Positions 13,650 to 38,189 of a stretch of 64,000 bases of DNA are shown here, piece by piece. The position numbers and the translations under genes were made by a program. Each line of letters starts with the position of its first letter. Positions within the stretch are counted from its first letter, which is position 1. Origin of the DNA: Thiogranum longum. GTDB lineage: Bacteria > Pseudomonadota > Gammaproteobacteria > DSM-19610. The stretch is from the NCBI RefSeq assembly GCF_004339085.1, contig NZ_SMFX01000001.1:943227-1007226 (forward strand), read 5' to 3'. The notes under the pieces are model-generated. The model was not told where the DNA came from and ran no database searches. It saw only the letters and a list, made by a program, of their open reading frames with translations.

Positions 13650-13650
13650 G

Positions 13651-14030: not shown

Positions 14031-14073
14031 ATTCTGCGTGAAGCAGTGCGCCGGTGATGCAACCTGGGTGACA
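14031..14073 (-). promoter_or_regulatory. Crp/Fnr-type class II promoter for the AhpD-pdhA-pdhB operon
   Basis: The palindrome TGCAACCTGGGTGACA occupies 14058-14073. Exactly 21 bases further in the direction of transcription begins the -10-like hexamer CAGAAT (14036 to 14031, minus strand). This puts the palindrome centre at -41.5 relative to a start near 14024, about 26 bases before the ATG at 13998. The same spacing recurs at seven other promoter orientations in the island. Confidence 0.82.
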
Positions 14074-15110: not shown

Positions 15111-15155
15111 ATCGTGTCTCCTGTTCACAATATTCAAATCAGTACCTGTTTCCTG

Positions 15156-19182: not shown

Positions 19183-19237
19183 CCCGGATGTCCCTGTCTG
19201 TCTGTAGTGAGTTGCGCTCACTTGTCGCGTCCCGGGA

Positions 19238-19280
19238 ATTCTGCGCGCGTCCGCTACGTCTGGCTGTAACCTGGGTGACA
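19238..19280 (-). promoter_or_regulatory. Crp/Fnr-type class II promoter for the phosphoketolase operon
   Basis: The palindrome TGTAACCTGGGTGACA lies at 19265-19280. The hexamer CAGAAT (19243 to 19238, minus strand) begins 21 bases after it, identical in sequence and spacing to the pdh promoter at 14031. The predicted start is near 19231, 49 bases before the phosphoketolase ATG. In the plus direction the hexamer at the same distance (TGTGGT) is not -10-like, so the site seems aimed at phosphoketolase; a TATATT at 19307-19312 may serve the plus-strand gene. Confidence 0.82.
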
Positions 19281-19363
19281 GCCATAGCATAGTTGGCGAC
19301 CTGTGGTATATTCTGTAATACATAAAAACATTTTTAAAACAGCCCGGAAAAGGAGTGCATGTG

Positions 19364-19867
19364 ATGAGACGTTTATATTTTCTTCTACCCAATGTGGAAG
19401 TTGCGCATAAGGTGGTCGATGAATTGCTGCTGGCGCGTGTTGAGGAGCGTCATATTCATGTCATCGCACCGGAAGGGGTGTCGCTGGGAGATCTGCCAGA
19501 GGCGTCGCTGCTGCAAAAAAGTGATTTTATTCCCGCTGTGGAACGAGGTGTGGCCCTGGGCGGGGCAACCGGGGTGCTGGCGGGTCTGGCCGCAGTTGCC
19601 ATGCCAGGTGTCGTGATTGCCGGCGGTGCGTTGCTGGCCATGAGCCTGCTGGGTGCCGGTATGGGTGCCTGGCTGGGTGGTATGATTGGTATGGATGTAG
19701 ATAATACCCGTGTGAAGGAATTCCAGTCAGCGATTGAAAAAGGCGAGCTGCTGATGATGGTCGATGTGCCAAAAGACCGGGTTAGTGAAATTGAAGAACT
19801 GGTCAGGAAACACCATCCTGATGCTGACTTCGAAGGCACCGAGCCGACAATCCCCGCTTTTCCGTAA
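19364..19867 (+). CDS. DUF1269-type general stress protein
   Basis: The 167-residue protein has a predicted alpha/beta N-terminal part ([19 protein letters not shown]), a central hydrophobic glycine/alanine-rich stretch (residues about 62-108) that could insert into or span a membrane, and a C-terminal alpha/beta part ([21 protein letters not shown]). This is the pattern of the DUF1269 / general-stress-protein 17M group; the biochemical function is unknown. The ATG at 19364 follows AGGAG eight bases upstream. It is divergent from phosphoketolase. Two related proteins are encoded at 21734-22324 and 37674-38189. Confidence 0.72.
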
Positions 19868-21551: not shown

Positions 21552-21594
21552 ATTTTGCCTGCTCCTTTCTGGTGGGGCTGTAACCTGGGTGACA
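21552..21594 (-). promoter_or_regulatory. Crp/Fnr-type class II promoter for the YvlD-ackA operon
   Basis: The palindrome TGTAACCTGGGTGACA at 21579-21594 is identical to the phosphoketolase site. The hexamer CAAAAT (21557 to 21552, minus strand) begins 21 bases after it. The predicted start is near 21545, 21 bases before the ATG at 21524. The same palindrome also fits a plus-strand promoter. Confidence 0.82.
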
Positions 21595-22334: not shown

Positions 22335-23732
22335 ATGAAAATCTTGTTTCATGGTGCCGACCGGGGCGTAACCGGTTCCTGCCACATGGTCGAATGTGCC
22401 GGAAAACGCATTCTGATTGATTGTGGACTGTACCAGGGCGGACATGAGCTGGTGGAGGAGAATTCCGCGCCTTTCGGGTTTGATCCCGCAGATATCGACT
22501 ATCTGCTCCTGACCCATGCCCATCTTGATCATTGCGGACGAATACCGCTGTTGGTTAAACAGGGTTTTAACGGCGAGATCATCACTACCCCGGCATCGGC
22601 CGAACTGGCGCGTCTGGTGATGCTGGATTCTGCCGGTCTTCAGGAAGAGGAAGCACGTTACCAGTTACGCAAGGCGCGCCGTCATGGTGGCAACCATGGC
22701 AGGAATGTAGAGCCACTCTATACCACGCTCGATGCGCTCAACAGCCTCGAATATTTTGGCAGGCATGCAGCGTATAACGAAGCCCTGCGACTCGACGGTG
22801 GTATCGATGCAACTTTTATCGATGCCGGACATATCCTGGGGTCCGCCAGTATCGTGCTGGATCTCGAAGAGGAAGGGCGCAAGCATCGTGTACTGTTTTC
22901 AGGAGATCTTGGTTACAGTGGCAGGGCAGTACTGCGTGACCCGGTCAGTCCGCAACAGCCTGTCGATACCGTGATCATGGAAACAACCTACGGGGACCGC
23001 CTGCACAAACAACTCGAGCCATCCATCCATGAGTTGTACGCCGTGATAAACGAAACTGTCCGGCGTGGCGGCAATATTATAATCCCAACGTTCGCGCTGG
23101 AGCGCGCCCAGGAAATACTGTATTACCTGCGAGAGGGTGTGAAGGATGGACACATCGAACACTTTACCAATGTCTTTCTCGATTCGCCCATGGCCATATC
23201 CGCCACACAGATCTTCCGGCGGCACCCGGAATGTTTCAACAAGGAGACACTGAAAATCTTCGACGGAGGTACAGACCCCTTTGACCTGCCCGGGCTGCAC
23301 TTTACCCGTGAGACGGCGGAATCCATGGCGATAAACCAGATCGACGGTGGTGCGGTGATTATGGCGGGTTCAGGTATGTGCACCGGTGGGCGCGTTCGTC
23401 ACCACCTCAAGCACAATCTGTGGCGGCAGCAGAACAGTATTGTCTTTGTCGGCTATGCCGCACAGGGCACGCTGGCACGCCGTATAATTGATGGCGCTGA
23501 ATCGGTGCGTATATTTGGTGAGGAGATTCCGGTGAAGGCCAGCATCCACACCATTGGTGGATTCTCCGCGCACGCCGATCAGGCAGAATTACTGGCCTGG
23601 CAACAGCGAACCGGAAATCCGGCAACAACCTTTCTGGTTCACGGTGAAGAAGACGCTATGAAGGCATTTTCCCGCAAGTTAAGTCATACAAAGGTAGAGA
23701 TGCCAGAACTGCACCAGCGTTATGATCTTTGA
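22335..23732 (+). CDS. MBL-fold / beta-CASP RNA-processing-type hydrolase
   Basis: The 465-residue protein has the metallo-beta-lactamase zinc motif THAHLDHCGRIP, a beta-CASP domain in the middle (FTNVFLDSPMAISATQIFRRHPE), and the C-terminal RNA-metabolising region (AGSGMCTGGRVRHHLKHNL and TIGGFSAHADQAELLAW). Related proteins are CPSF73-like RNA endo- or exonucleases. The likely substrate is RNA, but a stress-specific target is not visible. A clean ribosome site, AAAGGAG, precedes the ATG. It converges with the proton-pumping ATPase gene two bases apart. Confidence 0.87.
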   Translation: MKILFHGADRGVTGSCHMVECAGKRILIDCGLYQGGHELVEENSAPFGFDPADIDYLLLTHAHLDHCGRIPLLVKQGFNGEIITTPASAELARLVMLDSAGLQEEEARYQLRKARRHGGNHGRNVEPLYTTLDALNSLEYFGRHAAYNEALRLDGGIDATFIDAGHILGSASIVLDLEEEGRKHRVLFSGDLGYSGRAVLRDPVSPQQPVDTVIMETTYGDRLHKQLEPSIHELYAVINETVRRGGNIIIPTFALERAQEILYYLREGVKDGHIEHFTNVFLDSPMAISATQIFRRHPECFNKETLKIFDGGTDPFDLPGLHFTRETAESMAINQIDGGAVIMAGSGMCTGGRVRHHLKHNLWRQQNSIVFVGYAAQGTLARRIIDGAESVRIFGEEIPVKASIHTIGGFSAHADQAELLAWQQRTGNPATTFLVHGEEDAMKAFSRKLSHTKVEMPELHQRYDL

Positions 23733-23733
23733 T

Positions 23734-26325
23734 TCAGCGATTGCGCAGGATACGGTAGGCCTGGATTTTTACTGCGTCGTTGATGACAAACCAGAGCAGG
23801 GCGTAGGCCCAGATACCCAGTGCGTATTCCCAGCCAATTGGCGTGACGAATATCCCGTATACCGCGATCAGTGTGCCGAGGATTTCAGTGCCAAAGGTGG
23901 CACCGAACAACAGGCCTGACGGGTAGGGGCGTTTCCAGAACCAGTCATCGATACGCGTGACATACAGCGTGCTGTGACCGGCAATGATCAGCTTCAGGAA
24001 CAGCAGTGTTTGAATCAGTTCCTCGGGCAGGCCGTTTTTTTGAAGGATATAAAACAGCAGGAAAGACGATATAACGCCTGTTACGCCCAGTGCACTGGAA
24101 ACTGTCAACAGTTCGCTCATATTCCAGCGCACCGGCTTTCTGTCCACGCGGGTGTTGTCGTAGGCAATAGCGAGTATCGGAATATCGTTGAGTAGTGCCA
24201 GCAGAATGATCATCAACGCCGTGATCGGGTAGAAATTAAACACCACAATTGACAGCGTCATGAACAGGATGATGCGTATCGTTTCCGCAATGCGGAACGT
24301 TGCATAACTTTTCATCCGCTCAAAGGTGATGCGTGCCTGCTTGGTGGCTTCGTTAATGACGGACAGGCCGGGTGCGGTCAGGATAATATCAGCCGCTGCG
24401 CGTGCGGCATCGGTGGCGTTGGCCACGGCAAAGCCGCAGTCGGCTTTTTTCAGTGCCGGGGCGTCATTGACGCCATCGCCGGTCATGGCGACCAGGTGAC
24501 CGCCTTTTTGCAGCGTATCGACAATGCGGTACTTGTCTTCCGGTACGACTTCGGCGAACAGGTCGACATCCTCGATCATGTCGATGATGGCCGATTCGTG
24601 GGTGTAGATGAACTCGCGTTCCAGCAGGCGCGTGTCGTAAAGTTGTTCGAGTGTCTCCATGACTTCATCAGCAAAATGCCGGGCTTCCGATTGCGAAACA
24701 TCACCTTTGAGGCGCGAGTAGATGGCCGCAGACAGGGCCGATGTCAGCGTCAGCAGTTCCTGGCTTCCGCTACCGGTCAACTGTTTTGAACGGATGGTTT
24801 CGCCTTCCAGCCCCAGCAGTCGGCCGACTTCGCGGGCAATGGCAATGTGGTCGCCGGTGACCATTTTGACGCGTACACCGTAGTCGCGCATGTCCGCAAT
24901 GACCTGGGCGGATTCCGGGCGGGGTGGGTCGTAGAGGGGGATCAGGCCAATCAGTTGCAGTGGCTGGTCAGCCGGTTTCCGGCCCACCGCCAGCGTGCGA
25001 TATCCCTTGCTGGCAAGCTGGTCGACCAGTGTGTTGACAATGGCGGCTTCTTCATCCGGTAGTTCCGCCATCTCCGCCAGCACCTGGGCAGCGCCTTTTA
25101 CGGCGGTGAACGTTTCACTGTCCGTTTCGATTGTTGCTTCGGTTCGCTTGCGTACCGGGTCAAAGGGGATGAAGTGAGTTTGACGATAGGGCGCCAGATC
25201 CATGTCCGGCAGCTTTTCATCGATATAGTGGAATATCGGTAATTCAATCGGGTCGTTGTTTTCCAGGCGCGAGGCAAGTGCCGCGACCAGGAACAGCTCG
25301 GGGATGTCATGTCCATCAAGTACTACCGGTTCCGCGACCTGCATACGGTTCTCGGTCAGCGTACCGGTCTTGTCGCTGCAGAACACATCGACACCGGCCA
25401 GCTCCTCGATGGCGGTGAGTTTTGATACTACCGCCTGGCGGCGAGCGAGATTCATGGCGCCGACCGCCATAGTGACTGAAAGCACTGCAGGCAGGGCGAC
25501 AGGAATTGCTGCAACCGTCAGTACCAGTGCGAAACGGATTATCTCGATCAGCTCGTCGCCCCTGAACAGCGATACCAGTATGATCAGCAGCACCAGTGCA
25601 ACGGTGATCAGGATGAGGAAATTACCAATCTGGATAACCATTTTCTGGAAATGGCTGCGTTCTTCCAGTTGGGCCCGGGCGACCAGCGAAACCACGCTGG
25701 AGAAGCGCGTGTTCATGCCGGTATTGATGACCACAGCCAGCATTTCACCCTGCTTGACGATGGTATTCGCATAGGCGACTTCATTGATCTTTCGGCTGAC
25801 CGGCAATGACTCACCGGTCAGCGCAGACTGGTCGATAAGCAGGTAGTCGCCGGAAACCAGCTGGACATCCGCAGGTACGATATCGCCGATACGCAGTCGC
25901 ACCAGGTCACCGGGCACCAGATCCCGGGCCGGTATGACCTTCGTTATCCCGTTGCGCATCACGGTAACCTGGCGCGCCATTCTTGCTTTTAGCGCTTTCA
26001 GGGCATTCAGTGCGCGATGTTCCTGGAAAAAATCGAGGCCTGCATTGACCAGCAACATGACCAGGATGATCACGAAGTCTTCCCACTTGCCTGCCAGCGC
26101 AGACAGCACAGCTGCGGCCTCGATCATCCACGGGATGGGAGCCCAGAAACGCCGGAAAATCCGGTGCCAGAGCGGTTCTTCGCGTTCTTCTATTTCGTTG
26201 GGGCCGTATTTCTCGAGACGCTGCTTTACTTCGGCATCGGTCAGTCCGGCGGCCGGATCGACATCCAGCGCCTTCAGGGTCTCGGCGACGCTTTGTTGTG
26301 CGTAAGTATCAGTGTCCTGGGTCAT
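23734..26325 (-). CDS. P-type (IIIA) plasma-membrane proton-pumping ATPase
   Basis: The 863-residue protein has the complete P-type ATPase layout: actuator domain with LTGESLPV, phosphorylation motif CSDKTGTLTEN with D318, nucleotide-binding domain, hinge MTGDGVNDAPALKKADCG, and about ten membrane segments. The sequence matches the H+-exporting PMA1-type group (IIIA) rather than metal or calcium pumps: it lacks the CPx metal site and has PVALPAVLSVTMA in the fourth segment. It would use ATP to extrude protons and hold membrane potential when respiration fails. The ATG at 26325 follows AGGA. It has its own regulated promoter at 26368-26410. Confidence 0.9.
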   Translation of the reverse strand: MTQDTDTYAQQSVAETLKALDVDPAAGLTDAEVKQRLEKYGPNEIEEREEPLWHRIFRRFWAPIPWMIEAAAVLSALAGKWEDFVIILVMLLVNAGLDFFQEHRALNALKALKARMARQVTVMRNGITKVIPARDLVPGDLVRLRIGDIVPADVQLVSGDYLLIDQSALTGESLPVSRKINEVAYANTIVKQGEMLAVVINTGMNTRFSSVVSLVARAQLEERSHFQKMVIQIGNFLILITVALVLLIILVSLFRGDELIEIIRFALVLTVAAIPVALPAVLSVTMAVGAMNLARRQAVVSKLTAIEELAGVDVFCSDKTGTLTENRMQVAEPVVLDGHDIPELFLVAALASRLENNDPIELPIFHYIDEKLPDMDLAPYRQTHFIPFDPVRKRTEATIETDSETFTAVKGAAQVLAEMAELPDEEAAIVNTLVDQLASKGYRTLAVGRKPADQPLQLIGLIPLYDPPRPESAQVIADMRDYGVRVKMVTGDHIAIAREVGRLLGLEGETIRSKQLTGSGSQELLTLTSALSAAIYSRLKGDVSQSEARHFADEVMETLEQLYDTRLLEREFIYTHESAIIDMIEDVDLFAEVVPEDKYRIVDTLQKGGHLVAMTGDGVNDAPALKKADCGFAVANATDAARAAADIILTAPGLSVINEATKQARITFERMKSYATFRIAETIRIILFMTLSIVVFNFYPITALMIILLALLNDIPILAIAYDNTRVDRKPVRWNMSELLTVSSALGVTGVISSFLLFYILQKNGLPEELIQTLLFLKLIIAGHSTLYVTRIDDWFWKRPYPSGLLFGATFGTEILGTLIAVYGIFVTPIGWEYALGIWAYALLWFVINDAVKIQAYRILRNR

Positions 26326-26367: not shown

Positions 26368-26410
26368 AGACTAGCGTGATTTTCTTCCCTGGCCTGCAAC
26401 CCAGGTGACA
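26368..26410 (-). promoter_or_regulatory. Crp/Fnr-type class II promoter for the proton ATPase
   Basis: The palindrome TGCAACCCAGGTGACA lies at 26395-26410. The hexamer TAGTCT (26373 to 26368, minus strand) begins 21 bases after it. The predicted start is near 26361, about 36 bases before the ATG at 26325. The site lies in the 104-base gap behind the LpxR-like gene. Confidence 0.78.
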
Positions 26411-26429: not shown

Positions 26430-27503
26430 TTACAGCTTCCACTCGAACATGAGGGTGCCAAAGGCATTATCGGCATCCTCTGCGGCATCGATACTGGCGG
26501 TTTCCACCGTATCGGTAGTGAAGGTCCAGTCCATGTGCGCACCCCAGCGTGGCGTTTCATAGTGAAAGCCGATGTTGAGCATAAACACGTAGGGCTCCTT
26601 GTCGATGCTGTGGCTGTTCTGGAAAACGTTACCGTCCAGTAAAAGATTATGTGCAATGGCTATGGCCGAAGCGGTAATAGAAGTATACAGGGATGGTTCA
26701 GATGGCAATGCCGGTGACAAGGTGGCGTCATAAATCATGCTGTGCCCGATTGGATCCGGGTAGTAGGTGAAGCCTCCGGGTATGTTCCGGCCAATGCGGG
26801 TTTCCAGGCGCACGGCTGCCAGCGTAAACAGGGTGCCCAGTGCGGCGTGCCCATCGATCGTGGCATCCCACTTCAGGCCTGAAGGACCGCCGCCGCGGTA
26901 AAACTTCTTCTTGCGCATGTAATTCACGTTGAGTACAGGCTCGCTGTTCAGCTGGTTGTTCCAGCCTTCCGCTTCATTCACACCCAGCAGTCTGTGAACA
27001 AAATTCTGCGAAGGTTCGCCCAGTGCGGCAGGGCCAACGACGCCCAGCGTTAATTCGATGCCGTGAAATGTTTCATCGTTGTAGGTGATCCAGGTGCTTT
27101 GCACGGCAATGATGGCGGCGTAAGGTACATCATCCTTGATGAGTTTCGACTCGCTGAGCCTGGCCGGTGTCTGAATGATTTGCCCGATCGACAGGTTGAA
27201 ACGTTTGTACAAGTTGTCATTCTGCAGGCCTGGCAGTCGTCCACCGAGCCTGGCCAGTTGTTGTGCCGGCGATTCAAGCCGTGCCCAGTCATCGCCTGTC
27301 GCCGAGTGATACTGGAAACTCCAGCCGCTGGAAAACTGGTTATCCGACCCGACAAACAGGTCATTATCAAACTCGAGCCGGTACTTGGCGGCTTCTCTCA
27401 GGTGGAGGTTGGCGTTACCGGTTGGCGCCGCCTGAGCCGATTCCTGGCAAGCGGACAGGATTATCAGTATCAGGAGCGAAAACAGCGGGGTTGGGTAGCT
27501 CAT
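26430..27503 (-). CDS. LpxR-like (DUF2219) outer-membrane lipid A deacylase family protein
   Basis: The 357-residue protein has an N-terminal signal with a possible lipobox (LSAC at about residues 16-19). After it come the family motifs: LEFDNDLFVGSDNQFSSGW and LTLGVVGPAALGEPSQNFVHRL, which include the Asn-Asp and His residues of the LpxR active site. The rest is beta-rich, ending in WKL. LpxR removes the 3'-acyloxyacyl chain of lipid A in the outer membrane. Specific substrate cannot be proved here. The start at 27503 is preferred; an earlier in-frame start would overlap the palindrome at 27539-27554. Confidence 0.8.
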   Translation of the reverse strand: MSYPTPLFSLLILIILSACQESAQAAPTGNANLHLREAAKYRLEFDNDLFVGSDNQFSSGWSFQYHSATGDDWARLESPAQQLARLGGRLPGLQNDNLYKRFNLSIGQIIQTPARLSESKLIKDDVPYAAIIAVQSTWITYNDETFHGIELTLGVVGPAALGEPSQNFVHRLLGVNEAEGWNNQLNSEPVLNVNYMRKKKFYRGGGPSGLKWDATIDGHAALGTLFTLAAVRLETRIGRNIPGGFTYYPDPIGHSMIYDATLSPALPSEPSLYTSITASAIAIAHNLLLDGNVFQNSHSIDKEPYVFMLNIGFHYETPRWGAHMDWTFTTDTVETASIDAAEDADNAFGTLMFEWKL

Positions 27504-27538
27504 TATCCAGGTATTCCTGCCAGGTTTTGCCGTGCACA

Positions 27539-27581
27539 TGTAACCCAGGTGACAGCAAAAATAACGTTGATAGTCTAGGCT
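27539..27581 (+). promoter_or_regulatory. Crp/Fnr-type class II promoter for the Usp fusion gene
   Basis: The palindrome TGTAACCCAGGTGACA lies at 27539-27554 and TAGGCT at 27576-27581 begins 21 bases later. The predicted start is near 27588, 31 bases before the ATG at 27619. The hexamer at the same distance on the minus strand (GGAATA) is not -10-like, so the LpxR-like gene is probably not driven from this site. Confidence 0.78.
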
Positions 27582-27618: not shown

Positions 27619-28440
27619 ATGTTCGAAATCATACCGGTTAACGAAGAAAATATTCTTGCATTCAAGGCCAGTGGGAAGCTGACTGACAAGGACTACAAGA
27701 CCTTTTTGCCGAAACTGGAAGCGCTGATACGTGAGTATGGCGTTATTTCCCTCTATGTCGAGCTGGAGGATTTCCAGGGCTGGGAACCCGGTGCGGCATG
27801 GGACGACTTGCGTTTCGGTCTTCAGCACGACAAGGATTTCAAGCGTATTGCCATTGTCGGGGATAACGCTCTCGAGCACCTGGGTGTGGGGCTTGCAAAC
27901 TTTTTTACCCATACCGAGATGCGTTTCTTTGACAAGTCCGAGGCTGACAAGGCCTGGGACTGGCTGAGAGAGAAGCCCGAGCAGAAGGACAGGGTCAGGC
28001 CAGTGACGCCCTACCGGAATATTCTGCTGGCGACCGACTTTTCTGTCTGGTCAGAGCGTGCAGCGCACCGGGCACGGGAATTATGTACACAATATGACGC
28101 GAAGCTGCATGTACTGCACATAGTAGAGCCATTGGTGTTTTATTACGACGACTATGATCCGATACTTGCCAGTATGCCGCTGAACGACGAGACGCAGATT
28201 GTGCAGGCCGAAGACAGTATGAAGAAGTTTGCCGAGCGTACGCAACTGGGCAAGGATACCGACCTTGAGGTGCAGTGGGGCACACCAAAGTGGTCTATTG
28301 TTTCCTGGGCGCGTGAAAAAGCTGTTGACCTGATCATCGTCGGTTCACACGGACGGCATGGTATAGAGCGCCTGCTGGGCTCGGTCAGCAGTGGTGTGCT
28401 GCACCAGGCGCATTGTGATGTGCTGGTCGTGAAACCCTGA
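27619..28440 (+). CDS. SpoIIAA-like (STAS-related) domain fused to universal stress protein domain
   Basis: The 273-residue protein has two domains. Residues 1 to about 125 match the SpoIIAA-like/DUF3478 fold (ENILAFKASGKLTDKDYKTF, LYVELEDFQGW). Residues about 130-273 form a universal stress protein domain (NILLATDFSVWSERAAHRAREL and the C-terminal VDLIIVGSHGRHGIERLLGSVSSGVLHQAHCDVLVVKP, with the GxxG-x(9)-G(S/T) ATP-binding pattern). Usp domains bind ATP and aid survival in energy starvation. The SpoIIAA-like part may add a protein- or lipid-binding switch. It follows an independent class II promoter and converges with the permease gene. Confidence 0.86.
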   Translation: MFEIIPVNEENILAFKASGKLTDKDYKTFLPKLEALIREYGVISLYVELEDFQGWEPGAAWDDLRFGLQHDKDFKRIAIVGDNALEHLGVGLANFFTHTEMRFFDKSEADKAWDWLREKPEQKDRVRPVTPYRNILLATDFSVWSERAAHRARELCTQYDAKLHVLHIVEPLVFYYDDYDPILASMPLNDETQIVQAEDSMKKFAERTQLGKDTDLEVQWGTPKWSIVSWAREKAVDLIIVGSHGRHGIERLLGSVSSGVLHQAHCDVLVVKP

Positions 28441-28442: not shown

Positions 28443-29759
28443 TCAGTCTTCATCAGGACGAAGGATACAGCGGCGCTGGCTGAACAGCAGCTCTGCGGCG
28501 ATAATTGCAAGGTACATTATACCGATCCAGTACAGGCTCTCGCGGCTGGTTTCCCACAGGTAGAATACCAGTGCCAGCCATGAGGCCAGAGACAAAAGCA
28601 GGCCTGCCAGCGGCAACAGGGCATTGCCACCGGTTTTATCCCGCAACAGGCAGGCCGACAGGTTGATCAGGGCGAAGATCAGCAGGAACGTAGAGCTGGC
28701 AAATGATGAAATGATCGTCAGGTTGGCGGTGTTCACGAACACCAGTGTCACCAGGGTAATGGCGATCAGGCTGAACCAGGGGATATTGTTCTGCCGGCGC
28801 CGAAAGCCAAAGGCCGACGGCAGGGCTTTTTGTGTCGCCATGATCATACCCAGCCGAGCGGTGCCGAACAGGGTGGCATTGATGGCAGAGGCGGTAGAAA
28901 ACAGTGCTGCAAGCCCGATCAGCTGAAAGCCGGCCTCGCCCAGGAAAGGTTTGGCTGCCACGGCCAGTGCATATTCCTTGTAACGTGTTATTTCATCCGG
29001 CAACAGGTTTCCTGTTGCCACAATCGAGACCAGAACATAAATGGCGATGGTAACGGCAATCGACCACATGATGGCACGCGTCAGGTTTCGCTGCGGGTCT
29101 TCCATTTCGTTAATGGCATTGGGAATCAGTTCGAAGCCTTCGTAGGCTACAAAGATCAGTGCTGCCCCCATCACAACACCACCGTACCCCTGGTTGAAAA
29201 CCGGCAGCAGGTGGTCGGACCTGACATAGAACAGGCCTATCACGGCAAACAGCCCGAGGATAATGACCTTGATGGTTACAATCACCAGTTCACTGGTGCC
29301 GCTTGCCTTGATGCCGTACAGGTTTACACCAAGAAAGCTCAACAGAATAAGCGTTTCCAGGAAATGATGCACAGCCGGGTTTGCCCCGTCGGCGCCCAGC
29401 ATGGCACTGCCATAGACGCCGAAGGTAAAAGCATACAACGACAGGGTGCCGACATAGCCAACGAGCAGTAGCCAGCCACCAATCGCTGCAACATTCTGGT
29501 TACTGAAGGCGTGTTCGATAAACGTGAAGCTGCCACCACTGGACTGGTAGACCAGTCCCAGCCGGGCGTAGGACAGGCCGGTCAGCAGGGCGATACAGCC
29601 GCCCAGTGCAAAAGCAATCGGTGCCGCGTGGCCGGCCTGTGCAATGGCCAGACCGAGCACGGAGAAGATCCCGCCGCCCACCATGCCGCCTATACCCATG
29701 GCGATAACTTCTTTCAGGGTGAGCTTGCTGTCCCCGTTTCCGGATTGTCCGTTTGCCAT
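28443..29759 (-). CDS. APC-superfamily amino acid permease
   Basis: The 438-residue protein has about twelve membrane segments. The first carries the APC substrate-binding glycine motif GGMVGGGIFSVLGLAI, and the sixth contains AYEGFELIPNAINEME, similar to the GxG/FEG region. It moves an amino acid or amine with protons or by exchange; the substrate is not evident. It is the last gene of the dnaJ-cbpM-ppsA-hdeD-glgP operon, 38 bases behind the glucan phosphorylase. In this company an amino-acid-linked acid tolerance or carbon supply role is possible. Confidence 0.84.
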   Translation of the reverse strand: MANGQSGNGDSKLTLKEVIAMGIGGMVGGGIFSVLGLAIAQAGHAAPIAFALGGCIALLTGLSYARLGLVYQSSGGSFTFIEHAFSNQNVAAIGGWLLLVGYVGTLSLYAFTFGVYGSAMLGADGANPAVHHFLETLILLSFLGVNLYGIKASGTSELVIVTIKVIILGLFAVIGLFYVRSDHLLPVFNQGYGGVVMGAALIFVAYEGFELIPNAINEMEDPQRNLTRAIMWSIAVTIAIYVLVSIVATGNLLPDEITRYKEYALAVAAKPFLGEAGFQLIGLAALFSTASAINATLFGTARLGMIMATQKALPSAFGFRRRQNNIPWFSLIAITLVTLVFVNTANLTIISSFASSTFLLIFALINLSACLLRDKTGGNALLPLAGLLLSLASWLALVFYLWETSRESLYWIGIMYLAIIAAELLFSQRRCILRPDED

Positions 29760-29797: not shown

Positions 29798-32311
29798 TCA
29801 GGTGTACCAGTAAACCGGGCTGGCTTCGAGCGGGATTGCCACTTTCGGGAAAAACGGGACGACGCGTGGTGTGTAATCCGTAATCGGCCGGTTTGCAGGT
29901 ACGCTACCCGTGTAGGTAAAGGCGTTAACAGCACCGGCCAGTGGTGGACCGCACTGTAATCTGCTGCGCACCGGTGCGCCCCCGTCGATACCTTCTGCGT
30001 AGAGTTCGACCTGCACGGCTTCCACCGGTACATCGTCGAGGTAGACCTGGACCTCGAACTGATATGCGTCGCCACGGGTGGTTTTGCTGACATTGCCAAA
30101 GTGGATGCGCGGGCTGTGACGCAGCAGTGTGTCGTGCCAGCGTTCGATGGCAGACACCTGTTCAGGGTTGTCGCGACGATCGCGATAGTTATCCGCGAGC
30201 GACAGGTAATAGTTTTCCGTGTACTCACGTAACATACGGTTGGTGGAATACTGCGTGGTCAGACATGCCATGCTTTCACGCATCCGGTTGACCCATTCCT
30301 GCGGAAGCCCGAGCTCGTCACGCTGGTAAAAGCAGGGGACGACCTCGGTCTCCAGGATACGGTACAACTCTCCGGCCTCGATGACATCCTGTGATGGCGC
30401 ATGCTCCAGCCTGTCACCTATCGCCCAGCCCACGTCCGGCGTCCAGGCCTCGGCCCACCAGCCGTCCAGTTCGGACAGGTTGAGTCCACCATTGACCAGC
30501 ACCTTCATGCCGCTGGTGCCACTGGCCTCCCAGGGTCTGCGCGGTGTATTGATCCAGACGTCCACGCCCTGTGTAAGCCGGGCGGCCACGTCGAGGTCAT
30601 AGTCTTCGATAAATACCACACGGTCCCAGACCTGGTATGTCGAGATAAAATCATGCCACTGACGCAGCATGGTCTTGCCATCGTTATCGCGCGGGTGTGC
30701 TTTGCCGGCAAGAATCAATTGTACCGGGCGGTCACGGTTTGTCAGCAGACGTAACAGGCGTGCCGGGTCCTGCAACAGCAGGTTAGGTCGTTTGTATTCA
30801 GCGAAGCGACGGGCAAAACCCAGTGTCAGGGCATCCGGTTCCAGTATTTCACTGCACTGGCTGGCATCGGGGCGTGTGGCGCCACGGCTGCATTGCTGAT
30901 GTGCGAGGCGGCGGCGAACAAACTCTACCAGTCGCTGCCGGCCGGTGGTGCGGAATTGCCAGAGTGTTTCATTCGATACCTTGCGCAGATCCTCCTCAAC
31001 CGTTTCCAGCGTGCCCAGCCAGCGGGACTTTCCACAGCTTTCGGTCCACAGGGTGTCGGCAGCAGCCGAGTCCCAGCTCGGGACGTGTACGCCGTTGGTG
31101 ACGTGACCAACAGGGACTTCGGCCTCGGGCCAGCGCGGAAACAGTGGCAGGAAAATCCGTCGGCTGACTTCTCCGTGCAGGCGACTGACACCATTCACGG
31201 CACCGGCACCGCGTAACGCGAGGTAGGCCATGTTGAACCCTTCGTGCAGGTTACCCGCATGGCTTCGACCCAGTGTGAGCAGTTCATCAATGCTGATTTC
31301 CATCTGCTCCGCGAGGGTGCCGAGGTACAGGCTTGTCAGTTCGGGTTCAAATACATCGAAGCCGGCGGCGACCGGTGTATGGGTTGTGAACAGGTTTCCG
31401 GCCCGGGTGGCACGTAGCGCATGGCGGAAGCTGACCTTGTAACGCTGCATGAATAAACGGCAGCGTTCGAGTATGGCGAATGCAGCGTGTCCCTCGTTGA
31501 GGTGGCATACGGGACTATCGATACCCAGGGTTTCCAGCAGTCGCCAGCCACCGATACCAAGCGCCATTTCCTGTTGCAGGCGCATTTCATGGCCACCACC
31601 ATACAGCTCGCTGGTGATACCGCGGTCGCCGGGGTCGTTCAACGGATCATTGCTGTCGAGCAGCAGCAGGGTACGACGTCCAACCTGCGCCCGCCAGGTG
31701 CGAAGGTCCAGGTTACGCCCGGGCAGTTCGATACTGATGCGTACCCACTCGCCCTGGTCATCGCGCAACGGTACAACGGGCAGCATGGTCGGGTCATTAT
31801 AAGGATAGAACTCGATCTGCTCACCGTGCACGTTCAGTGCCTGGCGGAAGTAGCCGCGCTGGTATAAAAGCCCGATTCCGATGACAGGCACATCGAGGTC
31901 GCAAGCCGTTTTAAGGAAATCACCGGCCAGTACGCCGAGGCCGCCGGAGTAAATGGGCAGGGACTCACAGATGCCGAACTCCATGCTGAAGTAGGCGATG
32001 TGTCCCTTGAAATCACCGTCAATCTCACGTGAAAACCAGGACTGTTCGGCAAAGTGCGCTTCGCGTGCGTCCAGTTGTTTTTGTAACAGGTCAAGGAAGT
32101 CCCGGTCTTCGGCCAGTGTGCCAAGCCGCAAGTCGGATACTGTCTCGAGCATCAGCCAGGGGTTGGCGGTTTTATCCCACAGCTCCGGGTCGAGTTGACG
32201 CCACAGTACATCGCTGCCATGGTGCCAGCTCCAGCGCAGATCAAGCGCCAGCGTAACCAGCCCATGCAGTGCATCGGGCATGGAACGCGGCAGGTAATGT
32301 CCAGTTTGCAC
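29798..32311 (-). CDS. glgP: Alpha-glucan (glycogen) phosphorylase
   Basis: This 837-residue protein is a glycogen/starch phosphorylase of the short bacterial-archaeal class: LALDLRWSWHH, the glucosyltransferase core GLGVLAGDFLKTACDLDVP, and the pyridoxal phosphate lysine in EASGTSGMKVLVNGGLNLSELDGW. It releases glucose 1-phosphate from alpha-1,4-glucan, which saves ATP compared with hydrolysis. The GTG at 32311 gives the conserved N-terminus; an ATG ten codons later is possible. Its presence implies a stored glucan, although no glycogen synthase lies in the window. Confidence 0.9.
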   Translation of the reverse strand: MQTGHYLPRSMPDALHGLVTLALDLRWSWHHGSDVLWRQLDPELWDKTANPWLMLETVSDLRLGTLAEDRDFLDLLQKQLDAREAHFAEQSWFSREIDGDFKGHIAYFSMEFGICESLPIYSGGLGVLAGDFLKTACDLDVPVIGIGLLYQRGYFRQALNVHGEQIEFYPYNDPTMLPVVPLRDDQGEWVRISIELPGRNLDLRTWRAQVGRRTLLLLDSNDPLNDPGDRGITSELYGGGHEMRLQQEMALGIGGWRLLETLGIDSPVCHLNEGHAAFAILERCRLFMQRYKVSFRHALRATRAGNLFTTHTPVAAGFDVFEPELTSLYLGTLAEQMEISIDELLTLGRSHAGNLHEGFNMAYLALRGAGAVNGVSRLHGEVSRRIFLPLFPRWPEAEVPVGHVTNGVHVPSWDSAAADTLWTESCGKSRWLGTLETVEEDLRKVSNETLWQFRTTGRQRLVEFVRRRLAHQQCSRGATRPDASQCSEILEPDALTLGFARRFAEYKRPNLLLQDPARLLRLLTNRDRPVQLILAGKAHPRDNDGKTMLRQWHDFISTYQVWDRVVFIEDYDLDVAARLTQGVDVWINTPRRPWEASGTSGMKVLVNGGLNLSELDGWWAEAWTPDVGWAIGDRLEHAPSQDVIEAGELYRILETEVVPCFYQRDELGLPQEWVNRMRESMACLTTQYSTNRMLREYTENYYLSLADNYRDRRDNPEQVSAIERWHDTLLRHSPRIHFGNVSKTTRGDAYQFEVQVYLDDVPVEAVQVELYAEGIDGGAPVRSRLQCGPPLAGAVNAFTYTGSVPANRPITDYTPRVVPFFPKVAIPLEASPVYWYT

Positions 32312-32327: not shown

Positions 32328-32876
32328 TCAGATGACGGAGGACTTGCGTAATGCCCAACCGATGATAATCAGTGCCCAGCCATCAAACACCAGGCTGATA
32401 CTGACATACAGCCCGACCAGCCACAGTGAGGTTTCCGGCCACCCGACAAGAAACAGGATGGCCAGTGCCAGTGATACAATGCCGTTAAAGACCATCCAGC
32501 CCCAGCCACTGGCCGGACGAATAGCGCTTGCCAGAGCGAAACTGCCAAATGCATCAAGCAGCAGGTAGATCGACAGTAACATGCCAACAGCGGCTACGCC
32601 GGATAATGGATAGAACAGCATCAGGCCACCACTTACGATCAACAGTACCGGTTTCAGCCAGTCCATGAAGTTGCGGGCGTTGTATTGCCAGGTATGGTAG
32701 GCCCAGAACAGCCCGCCGGCAATCATCAGCCAGGCAATCAGGACACTGGTACCGAGTGAAACGACGGTTGGCAGCAGTATACCCACCGTGCCGAGTATGG
32801 CGAGCAGGATGCCGGTAATCAGGGTATAGCGGCCGAGGGTTCCTGGTGTTGGTAATGCAGGTTCTGGCTGGTTCAT
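32328..32876 (-). CDS. HdeD / DUF308 membrane protein
   Basis: The 182-residue protein has six hydrophobic segments in the HdeD pattern (LITGILLAILGTVGILLP, MIAGGLFWAYHTWQ, VLLIVSGGLMLFYPL, AVGMLLSIYLLLDAF, VSLALAILFLVGWP, SLWLVGLYVSISLVFDGW). HdeD is linked to acid resistance in E. coli; its biochemical activity is not known. The ATG overlaps the ppsA stop by four bases, and glgP begins 16 bases after its end. Confidence 0.85.
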   Translation of the reverse strand: MNQPEPALPTPGTLGRYTLITGILLAILGTVGILLPTVVSLGTSVLIAWLMIAGGLFWAYHTWQYNARNFMDWLKPVLLIVSGGLMLFYPLSGVAAVGMLLSIYLLLDAFGSFALASAIRPASGWGWMVFNGIVSLALAILFLVGWPETSLWLVGLYVSISLVFDGWALIIIGWALRKSSVI

Positions 32877-35287
32877 TCTTTGCTCCTTGTTGATTCGAGT
32901 TGAAGAACATGTCGAGTTGTTGCCAGCACGGTATCGGGGTTGAGGCTAATGGAATCAATACCGGTTTCGACCAGGAATTCCGCCATTTCCGGGTAATCGG
33001 AAGGCGCCTGCCCGCACAGGCCGGAATGCTTGCCGTTGCGTCGCGCGCCTTCGACGGCGAGGCGAATCATTTCTTTTACGCCAGGGTCGCGTTCGTCAAA
33101 GTCGAAGGAAACGATTTCGGAGTCGCGGTCGACGCCCAGTGTGAGCTGGGTCAAATCGTTCGAGCCAATCGAAAAACCGTCGAACAGTTTGGCAAACGCA
33201 TCGATCTGGATGACGTTGTTGGGGATCTCGCACATGACATAAACCTGCAGACCGTTGTCGCCGCGACCAAGGCCATTGTCCGCCATGGCCTTCAGTACCC
33301 GTTCGCCTTCTTCCACCCGCCGGCAGAAAGGGATCATAAGAATGACGTTGGTCAGCCCCATGTCGTTGCGTACACGTTTCATGGCGGCGCACTCGAGAGC
33401 AAACCCTTCGGCGTAATCGGGGTGTGTGTAACGTGAGGCACCCCGGAAACCCAGCATGGGGTTGTCTTCCTGCGGTTCGAAAAAGCCACCGCCGATCAGT
33501 GAGGCGTATTCGTTGGACTTGAAGTCCGACATGCGCACCACCACCGGCCTGGGCCAGAAGGCAGCGGCAATGGTACCCACACCTTCGGAAAGGTGTTTGA
33601 TAAAGAACTCGGTAGGGCTGTCGTAACCACGGCACAGGCTGTCGATCTGTTCGCGCTGGGCAGGGTCACGCACGCGCTCCGGGTGTAACAGGGCCATCGG
33701 GTGTGCCTTGATGGACTGGTTGATGATAAATTCCATGCGCGCCAGGCCCACGCCATCGTTGGGCAGGAACGAGGTCTTGAATGCCAGGTCGGGGTTGCCC
33801 AGGTTGAGCATGATACGGGTTTTTGGCCGCGACAGTTCGCCGAGGTCGGTGGTTTCACAAACGTAGTCCAGTTTACCGGCATAGACACGACCGCGGTCGC
33901 CCTGTGAGCAGTCCACCGTGACAGGTTCCCCGTCGGGGATAACCGCCGTGGCGTCGTCACAGCCGACAATGGCAGGAATACCCAGTTCACGTGCGACAAT
34001 GGCTGCGTGACAGGTGCGGCCACCACGGTTGGTGACAATGGCGGCGGCAATTTTCATCACCGGTTCCCAGTCCGGGGTGGTGGTATCGGCAACCAGTACT
34101 TCACCGGCCTGAAAGGTATTGAGCTGGCTGAGGTCACGGATCAAACGTGCATTACCACTGGCGATACGGGTGCCAACGGCATTACCAGTGGCGAGCACTT
34201 TGCCTTCTTCCCTGAGATGAAACACTTCGAGCATATTGCCGGTGACCTGCGAGGCGACTGTCTCAGGGCGGGCCTGGACCATATACAGTTCACCATCGAT
34301 GCCGTCTTTCGCCCACTCCATATCCATGGGTTTATCGTGACCCGCCTGACGACTGTAGTGCTTCTCGACCTTGATGGCATACTCGGCCAGTGTCAGTACA
34401 TCCTCATCGGAAACACAGAAACGCTGCCGGTCTTCGCGCGGTGTTGGTACGTTGCGTGTTGCCTCACGGGTACGCCCGGTGGCATAGATCATTTTGATTT
34501 TCTTCGAGCCCAGCTGGCGGCGCAGCACTGCGCGGTGGCCCTGTTCGAAGGTGGGCTTGTGGACGTAGAACTCATCAGGATCCACGGCACCCTGCACAAC
34601 ATTCTCGCCGAGCCCGTAGGCGCCTGTAATAAATACGACATCACGGAAGCCGGTTTCGGTATCCAGCGAGAACATCACGCCACTGGAAGCCAGGTCGGAA
34701 CGTACCATTTTCATGACGCCAATCGACAGGGAAACCTTGAAATGATCGAAGCCCTGGTCGACCCGGTAGTGAATGGCCCGGTCGGTGAACAGGCTGGCGA
34801 AACAGCGGCGGCAGGCATCGATCAGTTGTTCGTCGGTTTCGATGTTGAGGTAGGTATCCTGCTGGCCGGCAAAGCTGGCGTTGGGCAGGTCTTCCGCGGT
34901 AGCGGAACTGCGCACGGCGACGCTGATGTCGCCTTTGTACTGTGATTTCAGTGTGTGGAAGGCTTCCAGTATCTGTTCGCGCAGCGGGTCCGACAGGCCT
35001 GCAGCGTAGACAATTTCGCGTGCCTGTGCGCCGCATCGCGCCAGCTCATCGACATCATCGGGGTCAAGGGTGTTGAGGACGCCGTGTAATTTTTCCCACG
35101 CACCGGCATCATCGAGCATGCTGCGATAGGCTTCGGCCGTAATGGCAAAACCGTTGGGTATTTTTACTCCCTGCGGCGTGAGTTCGCGGTACATTTCACC
35201 CAGCGAGGCATTTTTGCCCCCGACCAGGGGAATGTCTTCGATGCCGAGCTCTTCGAACCAGCGGATATAGCGTTTTTTGTTGCTCAT
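32873..35287 (-). CDS. ppsA: Phosphoenolpyruvate synthase
   Basis: The 804-residue protein has the three domains of PEP synthase: the ATP-grasp-like N-terminal domain (LVGGKNASLGEMYREL, VAVRSSATAEDLPNASFAGQ), the phosphohistidine domain with GGRTCHAAIVARELGIPAIVG (catalytic H427), and the C-terminal PEP-binding barrel ending CGQAPSDYPEMAEFLVE. It converts pyruvate and ATP to PEP, AMP and phosphate for gluconeogenesis. In a glucan-breakdown operon it may run in reverse or feed pyruvate carbon back to sugar phosphate. The ATG overlaps the CbpM-like gene by four bases. Confidence 0.92.
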   Translation of the reverse strand: MSNKKRYIRWFEELGIEDIPLVGGKNASLGEMYRELTPQGVKIPNGFAITAEAYRSMLDDAGAWEKLHGVLNTLDPDDVDELARCGAQAREIVYAAGLSDPLREQILEAFHTLKSQYKGDISVAVRSSATAEDLPNASFAGQQDTYLNIETDEQLIDACRRCFASLFTDRAIHYRVDQGFDHFKVSLSIGVMKMVRSDLASSGVMFSLDTETGFRDVVFITGAYGLGENVVQGAVDPDEFYVHKPTFEQGHRAVLRRQLGSKKIKMIYATGRTREATRNVPTPREDRQRFCVSDEDVLTLAEYAIKVEKHYSRQAGHDKPMDMEWAKDGIDGELYMVQARPETVASQVTGNMLEVFHLREEGKVLATGNAVGTRIASGNARLIRDLSQLNTFQAGEVLVADTTTPDWEPVMKIAAAIVTNRGGRTCHAAIVARELGIPAIVGCDDATAVIPDGEPVTVDCSQGDRGRVYAGKLDYVCETTDLGELSRPKTRIMLNLGNPDLAFKTSFLPNDGVGLARMEFIINQSIKAHPMALLHPERVRDPAQREQIDSLCRGYDSPTEFFIKHLSEGVGTIAAAFWPRPVVVRMSDFKSNEYASLIGGGFFEPQEDNPMLGFRGASRYTHPDYAEGFALECAAMKRVRNDMGLTNVILMIPFCRRVEEGERVLKAMADNGLGRGDNGLQVYVMCEIPNNVIQIDAFAKLFDGFSIGSNDLTQLTLGVDRDSEIVSFDFDERDPGVKEMIRLAVEGARRNGKHSGLCGQAPSDYPEMAEFLVETGIDSISLNPDTVLATTRHVLQLESTRSKE

Positions 35288-35589
35288 CGTCCATGGCCTC
35301 GCAGTTGTATACGCAGTGTTTCTATCTCTTCGAGCAGGTCCAGCGCCAGCGCCACACCGGCAAGGTTGACCCCCAGGTCGCGTTGCAGTCGTGCAGCCAC
35401 CAGCGCCCTTTGCAGGGACACAGCGCTGAAGTACCAGCGTTCCGGGGAAGGGCCGCTGGGTTCAAGGACACCTTCATCCACCAGCTCGATAACCCATTCG
35501 GCATGTCGTGAGCAGGCCCGGCACAGTTCACCCAGTGACATCTGTGTCTGTTCGTCGATGACTACGCCATTCAGTATGTTTGTCGGCAT
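35284..35589 (-). CDS. cbpM: CbpM-like chaperone modulator
   Basis: This 101-residue protein has a MerR-like helix-turn-helix-related fold (MSLGELCRACSRHAEWVIELVDEGVLEPSG...WYFSAVSLQRALVAARLQRDLGVNLAGVALALDLLEEI). CbpM in E. coli binds and inhibits the J domain of CbpA, encoded just upstream here with a six-base gap. That neighbouring makes the CbpM assignment firm. It is then overlapped by ppsA. Confidence 0.82.
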   Translation of the reverse strand: MPTNILNGVVIDEQTQMSLGELCRACSRHAEWVIELVDEGVLEPSGPSPERWYFSAVSLQRALVAARLQRDLGVNLAGVALALDLLEEIETLRIQLRGHGR

Positions 35590-35595: not shown

Positions 35596-36549
35596 TTACA
35601 CTCCCAGTTTGCTGCGTGGGTTGAATGCCAGTTCCTGCTCCATCTTGCGATACAGCGCTTTTGCCTCATCGGTATTTGCCGGTGGCAGGACGATCTGCGG
35701 GATAACATAGATGTCACCTGGCGGTGTGCCCGGGATACCCCGGCCTTTCAGGCGCAGTTTCTGCCCGCTGCGGGTGCCTGCAGGGATTTTCAGGTCAACC
35801 GATCCCTTGGGTGTGGGTGTTTTAACCGTCGCACCCAGCGCCGCTTCCCAGGGCGCAACCGGCAGGTCGAGATACAGGTCACGGCCCTCGATACGGTACA
35901 GCGGGTGAGGTTTGAAATTGATCTCGAGGTACAGGTCGCCAGCCGGTCCTTCTCCCATGCCGGGCGAGCCCTGACCGGTCAGCCGGATGCGTTGGCCTTC
36001 CTTGACACCTTTCGGGATCTTGATGTTCAGAGTGCGTTCACGGTTTACCACGTGGCCACTGGCGTCCAGCTCGGGATGGCGCAGGGTAATCGTGCGTGTT
36101 GCACCATTAAAGGCATCTTCGAGATCAATCAGGACCTTGGCATGGTGGTCTTCGCCACGCGCATGGTAGCCGCCGCGCCGCTGTCCACCGCCACGTGCGC
36201 CAGCGAATCCCTGGCCAAACAAGGACTCAAAAAAGTCACTGTAATCGCCGGCGTCACCCGCGGTGAAGCCGCCACCCCCAAATTCAAAGCCGGCATCCCA
36301 GTCCGGTGGCGGGTTGAAATCGGAACCGGCTTTCCAGTTGGCACCCAGTTGGTCATAGGCTGCACGTTTTTCAGGGTCTTTCAGGACTTCGTAGGCTTCA
36401 CCCACTTCCTTGAAGCGTTCCTCGGCGTCGGATTCCTTGCTGACATCCGGGTGATACTTGCGCGCCAGCTTGCGGTAGGCGCGCTTGATCTGATCCTGGG
36501 TGGCGTCACGCTCCACACCCATAATTTTGTAATAGTCTTTGAATTCCAT
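35596..36549 (-). CDS. cbpA: CbpA / DnaJ-class co-chaperone
   Basis: The 317-residue protein has an N-terminal J domain (residues about 4-70 with the HPD triad in YHPDVS), a Gly-rich linker (GGGGFTAGDAGDYSDFF...GARGGGQRRGG) and two C-terminal DnaJ substrate-binding domains (VLIDLEDAFNGATRTI to the C-terminus). It lacks zinc-finger cysteine repeats, so it is of the CbpA type, which stimulates DnaK and may bind DNA. It is the first gene of the six-gene operon and sits 107 bases after the predicted transcript start. Confidence 0.92.
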   Translation of the reverse strand: MEFKDYYKIMGVERDATQDQIKRAYRKLARKYHPDVSKESDAEERFKEVGEAYEVLKDPEKRAAYDQLGANWKAGSDFNPPPDWDAGFEFGGGGFTAGDAGDYSDFFESLFGQGFAGARGGGQRRGGYHARGEDHHAKVLIDLEDAFNGATRTITLRHPELDASGHVVNRERTLNIKIPKGVKEGQRIRLTGQGSPGMGEGPAGDLYLEINFKPHPLYRIEGRDLYLDLPVAPWEAALGATVKTPTPKGSVDLKIPAGTRSGQKLRLKGRGIPGTPPGDIYVIPQIVLPPANTDEAKALYRKMEQELAFNPRSKLGV

Positions 36550-36662: not shown

Positions 36663-36705
36663 AGCGTACCATCGGTTGCCGGCCGGGGGTGTCACTTACG
36701 TGACA
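36663..36705 (-). promoter_or_regulatory. Crp/Fnr-type class II promoter for the cbpA-cbpM-ppsA-hdeD-glgP-permease operon
   Basis: The best palindrome of the set, TGTCACTTACGTGACA (perfect six-base arms), lies at 36690-36705. TACGCT (36668 to 36663, minus strand) begins 21 bases after it, aimed at cbpA. In the plus direction the corresponding hexamer is GTCGCA, so the adjacent crp-like gene is probably not activated in the same way; the same site could still autoregulate it. Confidence 0.78.
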
Positions 36706-36776: not shown

Positions 36777-37532
36777 ATGAAAAGGGATATGGCGTACTAC
36801 ACGCACTGCAAGAACCGGCTTGCCCGCTCACCCTTGTTTACCGGTCTGTCAGACGAGCTGATGGACGATATGCTGGAGATGTTCCGGCGCGACAGCTGGC
36901 GCCGGGGCGTGCAGCTGGATCCCTCCCTGTTTCAGCAGCGCCTGTTCCTGTTGGTCGACGGCCGTGTCGAGGTGACGCGTATCAATCCACAGACCGGTCG
37001 CAGCATTACCCTGTTCCTGCTCGGGCCGGGTGACGGCATTGACATGATTACGCTCCTCAACGACAGACCGCATGAAATGACGCCGGTTGCGCTCGATGAT
37101 GTCAGCCTGATTTCTGTACCGCTCGGCGATGCCAGGGCGTGGCTGGAAAAACACCCCGAGTTCAACCGGAATTTCCTGCCTTACCTGGGAGAGCAGATGC
37201 GCAAGCTGGAGGATCTGGCAACCGATCTTGCCCTGCACGACACCATGACACGTCTCGCGCGGCTGATTCTCCGTCACGTGAAGCCCTGTAATAGTGGGCC
37301 CACCACGGGAGAACGTTCATTACACCTGATCAATGACCTGCACGACGAGTCGCTGGCGCGCATGGTCGGCTCTGTTCGGCAGGTCGTGAACCGGCATCTT
37401 CAGCACTGGCGCAAGCAGGGTATTCTGCACAAGCGGCATTTCCAGACCGTGGTGACAGAGCTGGAATCCCTGCAGGACTACGCCGATGAGTCACCGACAC
37501 ACGGTGATACGGAGAAAACAGGCAGCCAGTAA
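36777..37532 (+). CDS. Crp/Fnr-family transcription regulator, proposed controller of the island
   Basis: The 251-residue protein has an N-terminal cyclic-nucleotide-binding-type domain (residues about 20-125), a dimer helix (about 130-165) and a C-terminal winged helix with recognition helix GSVRQVVNRHLQ (R201, Q202, R206). R-Q matches CooA, known to read TGTCA half-sites, whereas Crp and FNR have R-E or V-E. It lacks the Crp cAMP-pocket pattern (GEL...ERSA is here GIDM...RPHE), the four FNR cluster cysteines (only C11 and C171 occur), and the CooA haem ligands. The signal is unknown. The ATG at 36777 follows GGAG eight bases upstream. Confidence 0.87.
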   Translation: MKRDMAYYTHCKNRLARSPLFTGLSDELMDDMLEMFRRDSWRRGVQLDPSLFQQRLFLLVDGRVEVTRINPQTGRSITLFLLGPGDGIDMITLLNDRPHEMTPVALDDVSLISVPLGDARAWLEKHPEFNRNFLPYLGEQMRKLEDLATDLALHDTMTRLARLILRHVKPCNSGPTTGERSLHLINDLHDESLARMVGSVRQVVNRHLQHWRKQGILHKRHFQTVVTELESLQDYADESPTHGDTEKTGSQ

Positions 37533-37597: not shown

Positions 37598-37640
37598 TGT
37601 CAGTCAGGTGACAGACCTGCTTCCCGGAATGAGTCACATT
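37598..37640 (+). promoter_or_regulatory. Crp/Fnr-type class II promoter for the 37674 gene
   Basis: The palindrome TGTCAGTCAGGTGACA lies at 37598-37613. CACATT at 37635-37640 begins 21 bases later. The predicted start is near 37647, 27 bases before the GTG at 37674. Confidence 0.74.
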
Positions 37641-37673: not shown

Positions 37674-38189
37674 GTGTCTGACATTAATAGCTGTGTGGCG
37701 GTATATGACCTTCAGCAACAGCTCGAAGATTCCATCGCTGCATTGCAGCGCAATGGTTATGATCTGAAAAAAGTGTCTGTTATCGGCAAAGGTGGTTACA
37801 GCGAACAGCACCACTTTGCACTCATCTTGTCCCGGGGTATGCCCAGATTCCACGGAGAGCAGGCTGACTTCTGGAACCGTGTACACGCATTACTTGGCTC
37901 AGCGGGATTTTTCTGGGCGCCGGGTTTTGGCCCGTTTACGGTTGCGGGCGCCATTGTCACCGTATTAACCGGCAAGCCGGACAGAAAGCTGATTGGAGGG
38001 AAACTCCATCGGCTGGGTATGGGTCTCTATGCCGTGGGTCTGTCGGGCGACAGTGCATTGCACTATGAGTCCGTGGTTGACCAGGGCCGCCTGATACTGA
38101 TTGTGCAGGGCCCCCGTGACGAGGTGGAACGGGCCAGTGAAACAATCGCCAGGACAGAAAGTACAGAAATGGCCGTGCACGCCGCCTGA
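37674..38189 (+). CDS. DUF1269-type general stress protein
   Basis: The 171-residue protein begins with GTG at 37674, seven bases after AGGAGG. It has the general-stress 17M/DUF1269 layout: an N-terminal alpha/beta segment (CVAVYDLQQQLEDSIAALQRNGYDLKKVSVIGKG), a central hydrophobic, glycine-rich stretch (residues about 66-105) and a C-terminal segment (LILIVQGPRDEVERASETI). It is the third paralogue in the island and sits directly behind the seventh palindrome. Function is unknown; it could damp membrane or ribosome activity in stress. Confidence 0.72.
   Translation: MSDINSCVAVYDLQQQLEDSIAALQRNGYDLKKVSVIGKGGYSEQHHFALILSRGMPRFHGEQADFWNRVHALLGSAGFFWAPGFGPFTVAGAIVTVLTGKPDRKLIGGKLHRLGMGLYAVGLSGDSALHYESVVDQGRLILIVQGPRDEVERASETIARTESTEMAVHAA

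Follow-up and report, generated by a model that had tools for sequence, protein, structure and literature searches.

Genomic organization of the island

The window, meaning the whole stretch of DNA that was analysed, comprises 64,000 nucleotides of the Thiogranum longum genome (C1:943227-1007226 of 2.92 Mb in one contig) and holds an island of metabolic and stress genes together with the gene of a Crp/Fnr regulator (Table 1). The gene following the regulator codes for a YflT-like protein of unassigned function, which is present in 19 stretches around relatives and stands after the regulator in most of them, with a site immediately upstream. The site equivalent to that at 37598 is conserved in orthologues, 20-100 bp past the stop codon of the regulator gene, and the YflT-like gene is probably the most constant target of the regulator. 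Directly after the island lies a SufB/SufC/SufD/SufE-like Fe-S assembly cluster (38284-42282), with no motif site seen upstream. No described regulator of this island was found in the literature searched.

Table 1. Genes and candidate regulator-binding sites of the island (window coordinates; +32 denotes bp from the site centre).
Feature	Position	Strand	Remark
Pyruvate/acetoin dehydrogenase E1 alpha + beta	11591..13685	-	
Candidate site TGTCACCCAGGTTGCA	14058..14073	-	CAGAAT at +32 towards small ORF and E1 genes
Class I fructose-bisphosphate aldolase	14088..15137	-	
Phosphate acetyl/butyryltransferase	15156..16127	-	
Phosphoglycerate-mutase-like protein	16081..16788	-	
Phosphoketolase	16801..19392	-	True start codon probably further downstream
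Candidate site TGTAACCTGGGTGACA	19265..19280	.	CAGAAT at +32 towards phosphoketolase
Acetate kinase	19926..21113	-	
Candidate site TGTAACCTGGGTGACA	21579..21594	.	-10-like hexamers at +32 on both sides, TAGATT / CAAAAT
MBL-fold beta-CASP RNase-like protein	22335..23732	+	
P-type plasma-membrane H+-ATPase	23734..26325	-	
Candidate site TGTCACCTGGGTTGCA	26395..26410	-	TAGTCT at +32 towards H+-ATPase
LpxR-like outer-membrane protein	26430..27539	-	
Candidate site TGTAACCCAGGTGACA	27539..27554	+	TAGGCT at +32 towards USP gene
SpoIIAA-like + universal stress protein (USP)	27619..28440	+	
Amino-acid permease	28443..29759	-	
Glycogen phosphorylase-like protein	29798..32311	-	Named by inspection, not scanned
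HdeD-like membrane protein	32328..32876	-	Profile match
PEP synthase	32873..35287	-	NCBIfam match
CbpM-like MerR_2 modulator	35284..35589	-	Profile match
CbpA-type DnaJ co-chaperone, divergent	35596..36549	-	Profile match
Candidate site TGTCACTTACGTGACA, between cbpA and regulator	36690..36705	.	TACGCT at +32, cbpA direction
Crp/Fnr regulator, 251 aa, R201-Q202 helix	36777..37532	+	Pfam, predicted structure
Candidate site TGTCAGTCAGGTGACA, before partner gene	37598..37613	+	CACATT at +32
Conserved downstream partner, 171 aa, YflT-like stress protein	37674..38189	+	Below Pfam cut-off

Sensor residues of the regulator

Both the cNMP_binding and the HTH_Crp_2 domains of the regulator exceed their Pfam cut-offs, which places the protein in the Crp/Fnr superfamily. 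It reached no NCBIfam equivalog, the top one being FtrB (32.7 bits, cut-off 211), and NtcA (28.9, cut-off 245) and the CRP equivalog (22.2, cut-off 266) also stayed below threshold. Of the named relatives at the loci retrieved, a Thiohalobacter MAG comes closest, its protein being 89% identical. The predicted structure (pLDDT 88.9) is most similar, among solved ones, to mycobacterial CRP and GlxR, with about 22% identity and Z of about 24; CooA scores lower (Z 19.2).

The references to which the regulator was aligned were CRP and FNR of E. coli, CooA of R. rubrum and DNR of P. aeruginosa, those for CooA and DNR being checked against PDB chains. In this alignment the recognition helix reads G198-S199-V200-R201-Q202-V-V-N205-R206, and the R201-Q202 pair that the initial annotation had noted after Gly-Ser matches R180/E181 of CRP and R177/Q178 of CooA. 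The three losses claimed in the same annotation were likewise found: the CooA haem ligands C75/H77 are replaced by D89/I91, the CRP positions G71/E72/R82/S83/T127/S128, of which E72, R82, S83, T127 and S128 make the cAMP phosphate/ribose contacts, by D89/M90/H99/E100/L144/E145, and the FNR-type Cys cluster is absent, with C11 and C171 as the only cysteines. M. tuberculosis cAMP-CRP and GlxR, which are nearest to the regulator by sequence and fold and share the Asn that follows the helix Arg-X-X-X, differ from it in the same pocket (E72/R82/S83/T127/S128 in E. coli numbering against M/H/E/L/E) and in carrying Glu instead of Gln at position 181. Judged by sequence, the three classical sensor sites, for cAMP, CooA-type haem and the FNR Fe-S cluster, are excluded, but not every ligand. 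The proposal of a necessarily different signal stands with regard to these three sites and goes too far in its "must", since haem with other ligands or ligand-free activity is possible.

Conservation within the family points to positions that could matter for sensing. D89 is kept in all 16 near orthologues, where position 91 is V, I or A. C11 is likewise kept in 16/16 near orthologues and in 19 of the 26 members carrying the Arg-Gln pair (the R-Q clade), and is missing in the clade with Val at position 202. H99, which stands at the position of CRP R82, is kept in 37 of the 44 family members, and no Cys or His is invariant across all 44. C11 and H99 are conserved candidates for a new sensor, and D89, H99, E100 and E145 of the pocket are strongly conserved within the R-Q clade.

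The conservation of C11 and H99 would also fit a haem-based sensor of gas or redox state, responding to CO, NO or O2 through ligands unlike those of CooA (e.g. C11, H99, H167). The haem site of a Crp/Fnr protein can differ from that of CooA, as in DNR, and an O2 or NO cue would go well with targets in fermentation and stress. We nevertheless regard such a sensor as unlikely, given the lack of an invariant Cys or His in the family and of C11 in the Val clade, the presence of a separate DNR-like protein in the genome, and the finding that neither Ni-CO dehydrogenase (PF03063) nor Hcp had a match there. A comparably low probability is given to a ligand-free activator that is permanently able to bind DNA and is regulated through its abundance, as reported for DdrI, which shows that ligand-free Crp proteins exist (PMC11253593). 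In its favour, the cAMP pocket has lost the phosphate-binding Arg and the Glu to other residues, and a site precedes the regulator gene; against it, the conserved pocket positions of the R-Q clade suggest selection on the pocket.

Phylogenetic position and distribution

The tree took in CooA, CRP, FNR and DNR. The family of the regulator formed one clade (support 100/99) that excludes all four. The CooA pair was separate from the family (100/99), and DNR paired with another protein of the host genome (100/99) and not with the regulator. R-Q members formed a single group of 26 (100/100) nested in the family; in the Val clade the helix reads GSVRVVVNRQ, with V replacing Q202 (R-V members). As CooA lies outside the family and the R-Q group is nested inside it, Gln202 is derived from Val and the likeness to CooA is convergent. 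Of 369 genomes sampled from the class Gammaproteobacteria, 24 contained a member of the family, as did 2 of 398 genomes from the phylum, both again Gammaproteobacteria. On sequence grounds, the regulator is a member of an uncharacterised gammaproteobacterial Crp/Fnr subfamily, and not a CooA.

In the Val clade, two family regulators often occur in tandem and come from two distinct branches of the tree (loci L049, L052, L066, L068 and L070, at G094:C87:2555-3963, G090:C3:1843-3269, G229:C99:15980-17472, G197:C283:8849-10326 and G083:C177:37181-38274, respectively).

Besides the DNR-like protein, the host genome encodes a separate CRP, in which the cAMP motif is intact, and an FNR that has kept its cysteines. 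A diverged true CooA or cAMP-CRP orthologue, for which the R-Q pair and the nearest folds could be quoted, is hardly credible next to this genuine CRP, the missing haem and cAMP residues and the separate clade. With CooA, the CO sensor of Rhodospirillum rubrum, the regulator shares the Crp fold, the helix Arg-Gln and TGTCA half-sites, the pair being convergent and not diagnostic. It differs in the ligand positions, the branch, the lack of Ni-CODH in its genome and a left half-site that is often TGTAA. DNR and FNR belong to the same superfamily and govern low-oxygen programmes in other bacteria, of a flavour similar to the regulon considered here, but the regulator has no Fe-S cysteines and differs from them in helix and site.

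The sole close paralogue of the regulator in the genome lies at C1:613472 (54% identity, helix RQVVNK). The remaining Crp/Fnr proteins have E or V, never Q, after the Arg, or lack the Arg. Two of these proteins adjoin each other at G000:C1:1470013-1471195 (L072, L073), with Cys in the N-terminus or a loop and E or V at the position of CRP 181.

Candidate binding sites

TGTCA/TGACA halves, reported in the initial annotation for the sites of the island, are indeed present. The 2.9-Mb genome has only four perfect copies of TGTCA-N6-TGACA, two of them flanking the regulator gene (36690, 37598) and a third 2.4 kb beyond the close paralogue. Asymmetric variants of the form TG[T/C]AACCYRGGTGACA stand before island genes at 14058, 19265, 21579, 26395 and 27539. 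When up to two mismatches were allowed, TGTMACCYRGGTGACA had 20 forward matches across the genome and its reversed control 2. Within 353 kb (20 stretches around R-Q members), the perfect palindrome was found 29 times and the next best permuted half-site 8 times; it was found 0 times in 75 kb, in five stretches around R-V members. Nearly all sites around R-Q members lie 20-130 bp upstream of an island gene. Those of the orthologues precede the genes of phosphoketolase, acetate kinase, PEP synthase, glycogen phosphorylase (the phosphorylase-like orthologues in L015 and L023), H+-ATPase, USP and CbpA.

As a genome-wide marker the bare palindrome proved weak. It rises little above background, with 0-6 occurrences per genome for the reversed control, so what speaks for the sites is the extended motif together with their placement beside the regulator and island genes. 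One R-V genome, G096, has seven perfect palindromes although its family member carries Val202, and another TGTCA-binding factor may be present there.

Outside the window, TGCAACC..GGTGACA sites stand before a second H+-ATPase gene (G000:C1:1223800, L099) and a DUF1451 zinc-ribbon gene (1209536, L098), both of which are likely distant members of the regulon.

The sites could also serve mainly another regulator, either the paralogue at C1:613472 or a different Crp/Fnr protein of the genome. The paralogue, with its RQVVNK helix and the nearby TGTCA site, could bind some of them. This explanation is quite improbable, as the single-member genomes G011 and G308 show the same sites and the other Crp/Fnr proteins lack the Arg-Gln pair. 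Heterodimers of the paralogues, considered as a source of the asymmetric TGTAA...TGACA sites, were rejected because genomes with one family member share those sites.

Recognition helix and site specificity

CRP uses E181 to contact the cytosine that pairs with G4 of TGTGA (PMC11253593), and the residues at CRP 180 and 181 track site bases across the family (PMC1274295). Gln at the 181 position is already known in NssR and in HcpR of P. gingivalis (PMC1274295), so the R-Q pair is not a CooA signature. Of the description of the helix as CooA-like, the shared residue pair remains, and the implied kinship does not. The HcpR/NssR rule (PMC1274295) recurs here in a new subfamily, as Gln versus Val at the 181 position.

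An exact five-base palindrome scan around R-V members yielded nothing useful because their motif is asymmetric. This motif, TGTAACCCWGGTAGCA, was recognised by inspection of the upstream regions of R-V relatives, where it stands before island genes. Genome-wide it was present in 9/9 near R-V genomes (control zero), in 0/7 R-Q genomes and in 0/5 others, namely three distant R-V genomes and two relatives without the regulator; for the more distant R-V members (f151), no motif was found. Conversely, TGTMAYCYRGGTGACA had 2-14 matches per genome in R-Q genomes, 0-3 in R-V genomes and 1-2 in the two regulator-less relatives. Genome G733, examined once the helix-motif rule had been framed, holds a member with 39% identity and an RQVVNK helix, and has TGTCACATATATGACA 223 bp upstream of the regulator gene. 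The predicted pairing of the R-Q helix with TGTmA-N6-TGACA sites was thus borne out by conserved sites, their absence in Val202 relatives and their presence in an out-of-sample genome. Since Gln202 arose once in the tree, where other helix or wing residues also changed, the link of the motif to residue 202 itself is one that we infer.

Promoter architecture

In 18 of the 40 R-Q sites oriented to a downstream gene, the distance from the site centre to a TATAAT-like -10 hexamer is exactly 32 bp. The background is 0.9 per offset, and 2000 shuffles gave about 0.8 and never more than 7 at any offset. T, A and T occur at the equivalents of -12, -11 and -7 in 27, 29 and 32 of the 40 sites, respectively, and nine sites have the +32 hexamer on the opposite side too, as expected of divergent promoters. 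R-V sites show the -10 at +32 in 9/17 cases and in 0 on their other side. Because the -10 hexamer is centred at -9.5 and stands 32 bp away, the site centre falls at -41.5, which is where CRP and FNR are known to act as class II activators. Taken from predicted -10 hexamers, the spacing is that of class II activation.

At site 36690 the hexamer at +32 faces cbpA and no -10-like hexamer is found at +32 towards the regulator, so this site probably serves cbpA.

Proposed regulon and signal

The genes that have sites or belong to the conserved island are those of E1 dehydrogenase, class I aldolase, phosphotransacetylase, phosphoglycerate mutase, phosphoketolase, acetate kinase, P-type H+-ATPase, MBL RNase, USP, LpxR, permease, HdeD, PEP synthase, CbpA/CbpM, the glycogen-phosphorylase-like protein and the YflT-like partner. 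Such a content suggests ATP production from sugar phosphates and glycogen along with proton and protein protection, which would fit a shortage of energy or of electron acceptors.

We consider it probable that the regulator is a cAMP-independent class II activator of the Crp/Fnr superfamily, controlling an energy-starvation and fermentation regulon and representing the type member of its subfamily. Its dimer would bind TGTMACCYRGGTGACA (M = A or C) at the island promoters, with the site centre at -41.5, and recruit RNA polymerase in class II style. This would turn on a survival programme for energy or electron-acceptor shortage, made up of phosphoketolase/acetate kinase/phosphotransacetylase, glycogen and PEP metabolism, the proton pump and stress proteins. 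Whether the half-site has A or C as base 4 may depend partly on Q202, as G4 depends on E181 in CRP. The input would probably be a small molecule, or a change of redox state or occupancy in the beta-roll pocket (D89, M90, H99, E100, L144, E145), tied to the shortage. More tentatively, the subfamily founder could read a new energy-status signal in the remodelled pocket (D89, H99, E100, E145) and command the phosphoketolase-fermentation/starvation regulon through class II promoters, with Val/Gln202 as a specificity switch. RedB of Rhodobacter capsulatus, to which the regulator is likened by description, represents another uncharacterised Crp/Fnr subgroup linked to energy limitation (PMC9603854), with a 12-bp non-palindromic AT-rich motif.

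If the proposed activator model is true, TGTCACCTGGGTGACA and TGTAACCTGGGTGACA would be bound, and TGTGA-N6-TCACA and TGTAACCCTGGTAGCA would not. An uncharacterised group of regulators is now tied to a defined motif, to one kind of promoter architecture and to a coherent regulon that several families of gammaproteobacteria share, among them relatives with titles that name them as sulphur oxidisers. The two sister clades would represent a natural DNA-specificity switch (Val/Gln at 202), with a convergent resemblance to CooA, and the question of what Crp/Fnr proteins without cAMP, haem or Fe-S sensing respond to becomes directly testable.
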